This document shows positions 6,931 through 12,628 of a stretch of DNA of 64,000 nt, piece after piece. The notes beneath the pieces are model-generated. The model was not told the origin of the DNA. It saw only the letters and a program-made list of their open reading frames with translations, and ran no database searches. The stretch spans positions 310,001 to 374,000 of the forward strand of contig CAMUHY010000001.1 in NCBI GenBank assembly GCA_947088865.1, read 5' to 3'. Origin of the DNA: an uncultured Eubacterium sp. (lineage in GTDB: Bacteria > Bacillota > Clostridia > Lachnospirales > Lachnospiraceae). Numbering within the stretch: position 1 is the stretch's first letter; every line of letters begins with the position of its first letter. The translations under genes were made by a program, and so were the position numbers.

Positions 6931-7560
6931 TTATGCCACAATCTTGCCCTCATATATTTCTATAATCTCATCCGATAACATTTCAAGCTCTTCTTTATCA
7001 TGGCAGGCAATAATAATCAGCGCGCCTCTCTCTTTTTGTTCCTTTAATATCATATGTACCTGATTTGCACCAGCTTCATCTAAAGCATTAATAGGTTCAT
7101 CCAATATAATAATATCTGGCTGTTCCATAAACGCCGCCGCAATTCCAAGTTTTTGCTTCATGCCAAGTGAATATTTACGAAAAGTTCGCTTATCATCTGG
7201 TTCTAAACCAACTTGTAAAAGTGCATCTCGAATCTCTTTATCGCCAATTCTATTTTGAATGGATGCCAACACCTGTAAATTTTTAAAACCTGTATAATTA
7301 TTAATAAATGCAGGATTTTCTATAAGCATTCCCACACTCTCTGGAAATGACATATCCTTGCCTAAAATTTTCCCATCAATTTCTACTGTTCCTTCCGTAG
7401 CGCTAATTAATCCACATACAACTCGCATAAGCATAGTCTTTCCTGAACCGTTTTTGCCTTTAAGCCCATACACTTTCCCACTCTCAAACTCAAGATTAAT
7501 ATGGTCTAATACTCTCGCTTTTTTTATAACCTTAGAAACATTTGTAAGTTTAATCTTCAC
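6931..7560 (-). CDS. ABC transporter ATP-binding protein of the exported-protein cluster
   Basis: Single nucleotide-binding domain of about 210 residues, expected to energise the adjacent membrane proteins. Visible motifs: Walker A GKNGSGKT, signature SLGMKQK, Walker B IIILDEP and switch His in ACHDKEE. The start chosen is a GTG two bases after the upstream stop, six bases behind a GGAGGGG site; a longer frame from 7575 would put that site inside the coding region. It is last in an eight-gene minus-strand cluster. Its type is that of ABC-2/bacitracin-resistance exporters, so peptide export or self-protection is plausible but not proven. Confidence 0.93.
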   Translation of the reverse strand: MKIKLTNVSKVIKKARVLDHINLEFESGKVYGLKGKNGSGKTMLMRVVCGLISATEGTVEIDGKILGKDMSFPESVGMLIENPAFINNYTGFKNLQVLASIQNRIGDKEIRDALLQVGLEPDDKRTFRKYSLGMKQKLGIAAAFMEQPDIIILDEPINALDEAGANQVHMILKEQKERGALIIIACHDKEELEMLSDEIIEIYEGKIVA

Positions 7561-7562
7561 TG

Positions 7563-8414
7563 TTAACCCCTCCACTCACTCTTATTAAAAATATCCGTTT
7601 TAACAAAATGTATCAATCCCACTATTATTGCAACTATAATTATCAATATATCAATAAATATAATCATCGTATAATCATAACCTCCTGACAGATACATTCC
7701 ATTTCTTACTGTCATAAATCCATTTGTGACAACTGCTTCAAAGCTAAAAAATACGCCTGCAATCAACAATGCTACAACCGAAATATACCCAATTATTGGT
7801 GACAAGATTTGTGATAAACTTACTTGAAGCATGGAAATTGCTATTGATGTCAATACTGCGCCTATCAACATATATATTGCCAACTCATTAAAATTTGCAG
7901 AATGTTCTATCAATACCTTATCAAAACCTAATATTTTTGTACAAACCTGCATAGTAGGGATAAAAGAAATATTTTTTGAACCAATACCAACAAAAAAAAG
8001 CTCTGCTATTAATATCACATAAGCTGTTACTATGGATAACATACACCACACACATTTACTTATCCACCATACCATCTTTTTTCTTGTTCGCACCAAAACT
8101 GCAGTTCCAAAACCATTCAAATCCTTAAATGGATAATTTCCCACAATAAATGCAATTAAAATATTAGGCAATATATAAGCTGTTGGTATGTCTAAAATAT
8201 TGTTAGCAGTAATATCAAATTCTTTTGTCCCTTTAAAAAGCCATAACACCATATCTCCTATTGAATATATACCTACAAGCCCCTTATTTGAACAGCGAAT
8301 TATAAAATCAATTATAAGTACAGCATAGACGACCGCCAACAATGCAAATTTTTTCCATTGATACAAGATGCCATGAACACAGTCATATTTTAACTGAAAG
8401 AACATTATCTTCAT
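7563..8414 (-). CDS. ABC-type membrane protein (permease) 3
   Basis: About 283 residues with six or so hydrophobic segments, the first near residues 24-42 and the last near 245-270, and short polar loops. No conserved soluble domain is recognisable. It lies between another membrane protein (one base apart) and the ATPase (two bases apart), so translational coupling is likely. The ribosome site is weak, which fits coupling. It is probably one transmembrane subunit of the ABC system. The family could not be named with confidence. Confidence 0.85.
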   Translation of the reverse strand: MKIMFFQLKYDCVHGILYQWKKFALLAVVYAVLIIDFIIRCSNKGLVGIYSIGDMVLWLFKGTKEFDITANNILDIPTAYILPNILIAFIVGNYPFKDLNGFGTAVLVRTRKKMVWWISKCVWCMLSIVTAYVILIAELFFVGIGSKNISFIPTMQVCTKILGFDKVLIEHSANFNELAIYMLIGAVLTSIAISMLQVSLSQILSPIIGYISVVALLIAGVFFSFEAVVTNGFMTVRNGMYLSGGYDYTMIIFIDILIIIVAIIVGLIHFVKTDIFNKSEWRG

Positions 8415-8415
8415 G

Positions 8416-9177
8416 CTATTTCAAAAAATCCTTTCTTTGAACTGCTAATATTGTTAAAAAATATATACTTACACATAAAACAATAGGATAAACAATCTGC
8501 CAACCTATATTTATTCCATTGATATATACCTTATCACTCAGTCTGTAAATTACCCATAAAAAACCATTTTTTAACGCACTCTCTGTACTAATAATCACTA
8601 TGGCTGCCACAAAACCTGCCCACTGCCAATTTGTAATCCACCAAACATATAACATCATACTGCCTGCCACAAAAATAAGTGTAAATACGATAATAAAAAA
8701 TATTATTATTATCAATCCTGCATTTGGTGGATTTTCTATCATATATCCTGCAACTCTGTAAGCTCTGCTCTCACGTTTTTCCCAATTACACATGATGCCT
8801 GTCATCAAAAATCCTGCTGTTAATGTTACTATTGTTATATATAAAGAAAACAGCAAATCCATTATTAACAAATCTGAAAGAACATCTTTCCAAACTTTTT
8901 TTATTGTTCTTTTTCTAAGAATTAATGCAGGGTTTAATTGATATTTTTCTATGTAAAGAATATAAAATAAAATAAATGCTAAAATATACAGCCACACGGA
9001 ATATAAAGAAACAATGATAAATGCATCATAAACACAAGGCACGCCTTTTGTCGATACAATAGAAGGTGATGTCAATCGCAATATCAACTCTGTTGGTATT
9101 GCGATGGCTATAAGAAGCAGTATTACTATTGAAAATGTAATTTCATTAATATTTAATAAGGCTTTTATTTTTTTCAT
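8416..9177 (-). CDS. ABC-type membrane protein (permease) 2
   Basis: 253-residue polytopic membrane protein with about six hydrophobic segments (first near 15-33, others near 50-75, 105-130, 153-180, 185-205 and 225-247). Its ATG overlaps the TGA of the preceding gene by four bases (ATGA) and has a GGGGGG site, a clear sign of translational coupling. Probably a transmembrane subunit with the neighbouring ATPase. No enzymatic motif seen. Confidence 0.85.
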   Translation of the reverse strand: MKKIKALLNINEITFSIVILLLIAIAIPTELILRLTSPSIVSTKGVPCVYDAFIIVSLYSVWLYILAFILFYILYIEKYQLNPALILRKRTIKKVWKDVLSDLLIMDLLFSLYITIVTLTAGFLMTGIMCNWEKRESRAYRVAGYMIENPPNAGLIIIIFFIIVFTLIFVAGSMMLYVWWITNWQWAGFVAAIVIISTESALKNGFLWVIYRLSDKVYINGINIGWQIVYPIVLCVSIYFLTILAVQRKDFLK

Positions 9178-11199: not shown

Positions 11200-11263
11200 T
11201 ATAAACCTCCTGTAATAATAGTTTTTTATAACTTTTTAGTTTATTTTTATTACAAAAAATATA

Positions 11264-12106
11264 TCACTTTACCACCTCATTATTCTCAACATTCAATTTA
11301 AACACTTTTGCTCCCGCTGGAAAAGCATTTGCTCTTTCTGAATAAACCATATAGATATCATTTAACGCATTTCCTCCAGTAATAACATTTTCATAATGTG
11401 TACTTCCACCTTCGTTATAATGGTCATACTCTTTTACCAATTTCGTAGAAATTGATGTTCCCATAACAATCTCTTTTTCCTCTCCTGGCTGAAGTGTTAG
11501 ATGATTAACTTGTGTTTGATAATCATCACCAATATCTATAAAACGAAAACCTTCTGCTCGTAAGCAATATGATAACAGTTTATTTTTATCTGATTTTATA
11601 TCAAATATTTTAAAATTCATTGAATTAAATATATATTCTCTATCCATCTCATTTTTAATTAATAATTTCACAAGTAAAAATACTCGCTCATTACCAAATT
11701 TATCAACAGTTAATGTTCCATCTTCATTTAAAATATGGCTACTTTCAAATGTTGTGTAAAAATTGTATATATTATTTACATTATCATTACTCATCATCTC
11801 TGAACAATTATATATATTATCGGTTATAAAAGTATCTTTAACACATGCTGTAAAAACTGTTGTTTTACTATAATCCACAAATATACTTTCCCCCAACTCA
11901 ACCTTATCAACTTCATTCATAATACTAGTATATTTGTTATTGTTCTCATCTTCATTAACATGAACTTTATTTGTAATTACTGCTTCTGTTGATACAATAG
12001 ATGTTGTCTCTGGTTCTGTGTTAATGTCATTAATGCTTTGTTTTTCACAACCTGCTAATAAAAATAAATTAAAAATTAAAATCGTACATAATATCCTTTT
12101 ATACAT
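11264..12106 (-). CDS. Cell-surface lipoprotein, DUF5028-like
   Basis: 280 residues with a type II signal peptide; lipobox LLAGC puts the lipidated Cys at residue 20. After a Thr/Ser/Glu-rich linker (about 25-60) comes a folded region with TAC, VFLLVKLLIKNE and LQPGEEKEIVMG stretches, reminiscent of the Ig-like extracellular domain of the protein at 9174. It lies between the two exported paralogs (75 bp and 64 bp gaps), in the same direction, with a GGAGGG site close to the ATG. An immunity or receptor lipoprotein for the exported proteins is a reasonable guess; nothing in the sequence proves it. Confidence 0.82.
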   Translation of the reverse strand: MYKRILCTILIFNLFLLAGCEKQSINDINTEPETTSIVSTEAVITNKVHVNEDENNNKYTSIMNEVDKVELGESIFVDYSKTTVFTACVKDTFITDNIYNCSEMMSNDNVNNIYNFYTTFESSHILNEDGTLTVDKFGNERVFLLVKLLIKNEMDREYIFNSMNFKIFDIKSDKNKLLSYCLRAEGFRFIDIGDDYQTQVNHLTLQPGEEKEIVMGTSISTKLVKEYDHYNEGGSTHYENVITGGNALNDIYMVYSERANAFPAGAKVFKLNVENNEVVK

Positions 12107-12181
12107 CTTCCCTCCAAAGAATAAATGGCTGCAATTACCTTTAAAGCAAATACAGCCATTATCTTTTAAAATATCATTGCC

Positions 12182-12628
12182 TTAGTCATAACAATTAACA
12201 TTATCTGGACTCCACCAACCTTGATATGCGGCAACATCATATACATTTAATGAAGCTCTAAAATAGGCATAACCCTTTCCATTTGATTTTACTGTATTAC
12301 TATGATATCTTGTTGTTCCTTCATAATAATTATAAGGATTACTACACTTCATACTTCCATTTTTATCGTAACCATCACACCCATATACTGTTGCACTATA
12401 ACCATAATCTGTGCCATCACAATATGTACATTTCATATAAGAAGCACTTCTATCTTCTTTTTGTCTAACTCCTGTTTCATCAGATGAACCATAATCAAAA
12501 CTAAAATTGAATGAAGTATCACCACTATTATTTGCCATTGCAACATTTACTGCTGCTGAGCTTATGCTAACTGCTGCCATCGCTATTAAGGTGCCTGTAA
12601 TAACCTTACTTATAAAATTTTTCTTCAT
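12182..12628 (-). CDS. Small exported Cys-containing protein, copy 2 (DUF2712-like)
   Basis: 148 residues, near-duplicate of the protein at 10759. Signal peptide to about residue 32 (AMA-NN). Over the 74-residue core from RQKED to the SLN tripeptide only about nine residues differ by eye, whereas the N-terminal mature part and the C-terminus diverge (this one ends WWSPDNVNCYD and gains a fifth Cys). The DNA of the two cores is also highly similar, so duplication is fairly recent. An AGGAGG site precedes the ATG. It is the first gene of the eight-gene minus-strand cluster. Confidence 0.85.
   Translation of the reverse strand: MKKNFISKVITGTLIAMAAVSISSAAVNVAMANNSGDTSFNFSFDYGSSDETGVRQKEDRSASYMKCTYCDGTDYGYSATVYGCDGYDKNGSMKCSNPYNYYEGTTRYHSNTVKSNGKGYAYFRASLNVYDVAAYQGWWSPDNVNCYD

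Follow-up and report, generated by a model that had tools for sequence, protein, structure and literature searches.

The window analysed here is a stretch of 64,000 nucleotides from an uncultured Eubacterium sp. of the Lachnospiraceae (assembly GCA_947088865.1, contig CAMUHY010000001.1, positions 310,001 to 374,000), and our subject is a gene cluster at window positions 6931-12628. An earlier note, made from the sequence alone, had placed eight minus-strand genes there and read them as an export, toxin or surface-signal system related to, yet distinct from, lactococcin-972 systems. All eight open reading frames (ORFs) are where that note had them, transcribed from the minus strand in the order A1, B, A2, C, D, E, F, G (Table 1), and their products are likewise of the types described: a duplicated exported protein, a lipoprotein encoded between the two copies, a membrane-anchored protein, three polytopic membrane proteins and one ATP-binding cassette (ABC) ATPase. 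The cluster is a real, conserved and uncharacterised system. The gene set goes beyond chance, as it recurs twice more in the same genome and as C and G both lie within 7 kb of A at 52 of 53 distinct loci that were picked by A alone.

Table 1 Features of the cluster, with positions in the window
Feature	Positions	Strand	Basis
A1, exported protein, 148 aa	12182..12628	-	DUF2712 family via homology
Hairpin directly 3' of A1, terminator-like by eye	12117..12165	-	folding of 12105-12180
B, lipoprotein, 280 aa, DUF4352-like	11264..12106	-	lipobox LLAGC (by eye); homologous to D
A2, second exported DUF2712-type protein, 146 aa	10759..11199	-	76% identity to A1
C, polytopic permease 1, 275 aa	9709..10536	-	without Pfam match of its own; ABC2_membrane in a few relatives
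D, membrane-anchored extracytoplasmic protein, 183 aa	9174..9725	-	homologous to B; without Pfam match of its own
E, polytopic permease 2, 253 aa	8416..9177	-	profile related to F
F, polytopic permease 3, 283 aa, DUF2705	7563..8414	-	PF10920 match
G, ABC ATPase, 214 aa	6931..7575	-	ABC_tran match; motifs

Coupled starts, which had been claimed for the whole cluster, fit C-D-E-F-G, where neighbouring genes overlap or sit 1 bp apart, but not the first part, where gaps of 75 bp (A1-B), 64 bp (B-A2) and 222 bp (A2-C) intervene. A hydropathy rule gives six hydrophobic segments for C, five for E, six for F, one each for B and D and none for G; throughout, signal peptides, the lipobox, AgrD likeness and transmembrane (TM) counts were judged by eye or by this rule and not by a trained predictor. 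The stretch behind A1 folds at a z of -3.29 (0 of 200 shuffles as low), and the terminator pattern scan made no call at the hairpin, which, going by its position, possibly sets A1 expression above that of B. Rfam matches to animal microRNAs at 12112-12170 and 12977-13042 fell under their gathering scores and were taken as hairpin noise. The GC content of the cluster is 30.2% vs 35.5% for the window, a weak signal given that 63 of 584 sliding windows have an even lower content. A repeat of about 150 bp, present in the genome about 40 times, borders the cluster on both sides (6767-6928 and 13453-13619), and another copy is found some 116 bp away from A in one of the two further clusters (C6, below). 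The repeat forms strong hairpins (z -9) and weakly resembles the Clostridiales-1 small RNA, under the gathering score.

By inspection, A1 has a signal peptide with a K-rich start, a hydrophobic core and cleavage near A-N-N, and it carries the C-terminal motif WSPD. Conserved among A proteins are N-x-x-D-T, R-x-K-x-D-x-S-S-x-Y-M-K and a C-terminal G-V-W-S-P-D-S-V. Neither window copy matches Pfam DUF2712 (PF10916), and all their Pfam and NCBIfam matches are at chance level. Nevertheless, by sequence comparison A1 and A2 belong to DUF2712, through homology and not through a direct profile score: 7 of 10 aligned A homologues match DUF2712 at E values up to 10 (best 3.3e-12), both other A copies of the genome (C6 and C16) lie above the PF10916 cut-off, and the C6 copy aligns to A1 at E 1.3e-9. 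The family names DUF2712 and DUF5028 given in the earlier note are right for the families, whereas its "Cys proteins" does not describe a family trait, with no Cys after residue 28 in 17 of 69 members and only one in 26. A disulfide-rich toxin as family trait was discarded on the same grounds. Profile search found no PDB match for the A family. The genes of A1 and A2 are 88% identical over 300 nt, with a dN of 0.16 and a dS of 0.39, which indicates purifying selection; positive selection between them was considered and not seen.

The two further clusters in the genome are C6 (L012, 4263-9261), with the order A-B-C-D-E-F-G, and C16 (L043, 7886-12838), with the order A-B-C-E-F-G-D. In a tree of C proteins, built by a quick search under a simple model and flagging long branches, the window cluster, L024 and L230 form a fully supported trio, while L012 groups with L131 and L043 with L126. 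Lying on different branches, the three clusters look like separate acquisitions and not like recent copies. Beyond this genome, among 299 genomes from the same bacterial family alignment A3 places A in at least 25, and in a Lactobacillales sample in at least 21 of 295; most occurrences rest on this alignment and not on PF10916, which by itself detects A in only 2 of the 398 phylum genomes searched, one of them the window's. Only the best 13 candidates per genome were scored for A and the best 8 for C, so counts may be low and absence from a given genome is unproven. A single contig scan gave 19 loci from Lachnospiraceae, other Clostridia, Bacillaceae, Enterococcus and Bifidobacterium.

The 53 loci used for linkage each have at least 7 kb of downstream sequence (17 with a shorter flank were set aside), and some of them are close relatives. 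Repeats of the same DNA (L045-L048) are omitted, as are L138, L139 and L158, at which the genome search had matched A but no A ORF was found. With thresholds of at least 250 bits for G and at least 60 bits for the other parts, D is present at 39 of these loci, F at 41, E at 19 and B at 19, the split between E and F being rough because their models overlap. Over 51 non-redundant loci, the pairwise distances among A proteins rise with those among C proteins (r 0.58, Mantel p 0.0005), and A and B are duplicated together at L029 and L122. The earlier note had proposed asking whether the small proteins occur independently of the ABC genes, and on these counts its interpretation is not refuted.

The converse does not apply: A almost never occurs without the transporter, and the transporter often occurs without A. 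At least 41 C matches of 120 bits or more were found in the 299 family genomes. Sorted by hand, the 41 listed comprise 23 beside A, 13 (at 12 loci) with ABC genes and no recognisable A, one (L244) beside a decayed 72-aa remnant of A, one (L235) beside a divergent exported protein ending GKWATTDTVSVY and adjoining AgrB and a kinase, and three that stop at a contig edge. The divergent protein at L235 (1877-2302, 141 aa) stands in A's place and is possibly a second partner family for the same type of transporter. The A-less loci are L230-L233, L236-L241, L243 and L245, each matching D at 30 bits or more; L230 is from a genome of the same genus (G008). On the C tree they require 11 changes, at least 8 of them forced by supported branches, and cluster no more than shuffled labels do. 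At L238 (6811-11372), without A, B-C-D is tandem-duplicated as one unit.

This asymmetry fits a toxin with its immunity, and an optional accessory fits nearly as well. The main rival explanation is that the ABC genes with B and D form a general resistance or envelope-stress pump with a Cpr- or Bce-like role, to which A would be a secreted accessory such as a decoy for foreign antimicrobial peptides or a surface conditioner. The 12 loci with ABC genes and no A speak for such a pump, as does the presence of two-component or agr-type genes within 3.5 kb at 6 of 17 loci fetched for lacking A, and the ATPase resembles resistance and immunity types alike. However, A appears by inspection to be freely secreted and not anchored, was duplicated along with B at the two loci named above, and hardly ever turns up without pump genes (1 of 53). 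We regard this explanation as doubtful, albeit one to be taken seriously.

Among the permeases, F matches PF10920 (DUF2705) at 26.5 bits, above the cut-off of 22.4, and C and E have nothing beyond chance in Pfam, though of 17 C relatives a few do match ABC2_membrane models. With each ORF placed in one profile only, here and for B and D, hhalign aligns E with F at 98.2% (E 3e-14), C with F at 96.0% (E 4e-9) and C with E at 92.0% (E 7e-7); judged by these profiles, C, E and F are related permeases. G matches ABC_tran at 102 bits, contains Walker A, signature and Walker B motifs, and starts at a GTG with a second GTG 15 bp in. At its Q-loop position is a glutamate (LIENP), as in 62 of 66 family ATPases, G included. 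A glutamate in place of the Q-loop glutamine is taken here as a mark of LanF proteins, a point for which searching the literature turned up no source. The best NCBIfam model for G is TIGR03740 (lantibiotic protection) at 171.7 bits vs a cut-off of 309.75, and the same model is best for 9 of 9 cluster ATPases scanned, all of them far below the cut-off.

That the transporter instead exports or matures A is suggested by A being so nearly always linked to C and G. Against it, the signal peptide of A looks by inspection like an ordinary Sec one, Pfam showed no peptidase domain in G, and the ABC genes occur without A, which together make this role improbable.

For the extracytoplasmic proteins, the B and D profiles share no rows and align at 97.6% (E 4e-12); the "related membrane-anchored protein" of the earlier note is accurate if these two were meant. 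B matches DUF4352 at E 7e-4 (20.3 bits, under the cut-off of 25.9), D has no Pfam match of its own, and among 13 relatives of D, DUF5028 matches one (3e-14) and DUF4352 two. The proposed pair of Ig-like extracellular factors is thus real and homologous as a pair, while its Ig-like nature is a suggestion from weak DUF4352 and DUF5028 matches in a few relatives.

Regulatory genes of the agr type lie beside a minority of the clusters. Within 3.5 kb of 71 A clusters (399 kb), 16 GHKL kinases were found vs 1 in 336 kb of more distant sequence (p 5e-4), an enrichment that leans upward since the kinase models were seeded from genes beside clusters. Peptides that look AgrD-like by eye are encoded at L024 (8784-8915), L123 (8088-8237), L128 (8219-8344) and L235 (2346-2498). 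In the window itself, a Spo0A_C response regulator and a GHKL kinase (14510-17024) lie on the opposite strand, divergent from the cluster and with two ORFs between. A could be thought of as a surface or signal protein under quorum control, with a part in matrix, adhesion or communication, that the ABC genes sense or recycle. This notion would suit the agr-type kinases, AgrB and AgrD-like peptides found near some clusters, as well as the extracytoplasmic partners B and D. Yet an agr-type or two-component gene lies within 3.5 kb of 20 of 71 clusters and of none of the other 51, G resembles the immunity type, and 13 of the 41 listed strong C matches have no recognisable A, so we find this notion unlikely. 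Farther along the window, a 1501-aa ORF (59437-63942) carries, by eye, a HEIGH metallopeptidase-like motif.

The kinship with lactococcin 972 drawn in the earlier note was not borne out. A Sec-exported small protein beside an ABC ATPase does recall such loci, and A1 matches TIGR01653, but at chance level (E 0.32, 11.3 vs a cut-off of 32.1 bits). PF09683 has no match in A1, A2 and 8 relatives, nor in the window's genome, where controls matched nowhere either; the same model matched 16 of 118 Lactobacillales. Profile-profile comparison of 69 DUF2712 with 16 lactococcin-972 proteins gave an hhalign probability of 11.6%. In 13 lactococcin-972 neighbourhoods, models of A, C, D, E and F had no match and that of B had two weak ones (22 and 16 bits). 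The ATPases there score no higher than 189 bits against the G model, vs 256-362 bits for the cluster ATPases counted, a count that itself required 250. G reaches 108.2 bits with the lactococcin-972 ABC model (TIGR03608; cut-off 254.85) and is nearer to the lantibiotic-protection model. It is accordingly most improbable that A is in the lactococcin-972 family and the cluster a variant of its locus, and we rejected membership as unsupported by profile, profile-profile and neighbourhood comparison, although the cluster may work like lactococcin 972.

A counterpart exists in Bacillus subtilis, whose genome, included as a control, matches both PF10916 and PF10920. We presume this to be the yybN operon (yybNMLKJ). 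The literature searched, with most subscription journals outside its scope, did not contain DUF2712 or DUF2705 by name. According to excerpts of PMC2978689 and PMC11841835, the function of the yybN operon is unknown, its acquisition by horizontal transfer has been proposed, and Rok represses it as it does sboA-alb, sunA and sdp. Part of PMC11466899 names YybJ2KL as an ABC exporter whose function is unknown, and the place of yybN in a CcpA regulon table, seen in an extract of PMC4591507, is uninformative. A moderate sensitivity of a yybN deletion to dipyridyl, the one yybN phenotype found in print (PMC6212828, in extract), would suit a resistance pump.

The best reading, in our view, is a Sec-secreted antibacterial protein with LanI/LanFEG-like self-immunity, for and against which we see the case as evenly balanced. 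It builds on the linkage at 52 of 53 loci, the asymmetry of A and transporter, the scatter of the A-less loci, the resemblance of G to TIGR03740 and the LanI/LanFEG outline. The co-duplication of A and B, the kinase enrichment, the AgrD-like peptides and the repression of yybN by Rok along with bacteriocin operons add to it, as does a repertoire-like spread, with three clusters on different C branches in one genome and A in at least 25 of 299 family genomes. Of the export, toxin or signal system first proposed, a Sec-exported small protein with an immunity-like ABC module is retained; the step to a toxin argues by analogy from the outline, the pump resemblance and the gene asymmetry, and the activity is putative. 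In such a system, A1 and A2 would leave by the Sec route, going by their signal peptides, as soluble mature proteins of an estimated 12-13 kDa, and would target the cell envelope of Gram-positive relatives. The outer-face factors B (lipoprotein) and D (anchored) would bind A, and the transporter of G with C, E and F would clear A, or its target complex, out of the membrane.

Several observations weigh against a secreted antibacterial protein. ABC genes without A are also expected if A is an optional pump accessory, and 2 of the 12 A-less loci show no intact G: the L230 contig stops before it, and G at L240 is split over two ORFs. At L042, A has no ABC set and lies beside AgrB and two-component genes. 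G is well under the TIGR03740 cut-off. Response regulators (18 near vs 7 far, p 0.06) and AgrB (8 vs 2, p 0.09) are not significantly enriched, the kinase enrichment leans upward, and most clusters have no such regulator nearby. Over 44 loci A diverges no faster than permease C (mean identity 27% for A, 25% for C, 18% for D and 47% for G), which, with the purifying selection on A1 and A2, leaves no arms-race signal. Two queries gave no plasmid match, and viral contigs gave 8 pattern matches, none a relative, which is unusual for bacteriocins; spread by mobile elements was set aside as unsupported on the same results. Rok represses non-bacteriocin genes too, such as comK (PMC2978689 and PMC11841835, in excerpts), and the dipyridyl phenotype points elsewhere.

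More broadly, and with somewhat less assurance, we tentatively propose that DUF2712 comprises undescribed Sec-secreted bacteriocins of about 12-13 kDa in Clostridia, Bacilli and Bifidobacterium with dedicated LanFEG-like immunity and paired outer-face factors, that the A-less sets are orphan immunity retained against neighbours and that the B. subtilis representative is the Rok-silenced yybN operon. If true, two DUF families and a function-unknown operon of the best-studied Gram-positive bacterium would gain one testable function. A secreted class that profile-based bacteriocin searches may miss, given the chance-level scores of A1 and A2 in Pfam and NCBIfam, would take part in competition among gut bacteria, and orphan immunity sets would predict who resists whom among them.

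Compared with known systems, TMcin, according to the part of PMC12328743 that describes it, is a half-transmembrane-helix peptide unlike the soluble A, and was set aside by description and not by sequence. Lactococcin 972 and streptococcin B loci likewise join predicted genes for immunity and transport to a small protein exported by Sec (PMC11796350, in extract), but the exported protein is non-homologous by profile and C, E, F and D are unshared. Cpr-type resistance operons combine a LanFEG-like ABC transporter with two-component genes and have no biosynthesis genes, according to excerpts of PMC5786555; some A-less loci have the same combination, whereas the present clusters usually encode a secreted DUF2712-type protein. 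The same excerpts give a LanI lipoprotein with LanFEG and its six-TM permeases as a known plan of lantibiotic self-immunity. No lanthipeptide precursor or modification genes were found among the eight proteins with Pfam and NCBIfam, a scan limited to these eight. By analogy, B, C/E/F and G appear to share the outline of LanI/LanFEG (for example, NisI and NisFEG), with a lipoprotein, one LanF-like ATPase and several permeases of about six TM segments, but the cluster has three permeases instead of two, an ATPase under the family cut-off and the anchored protein D in addition.

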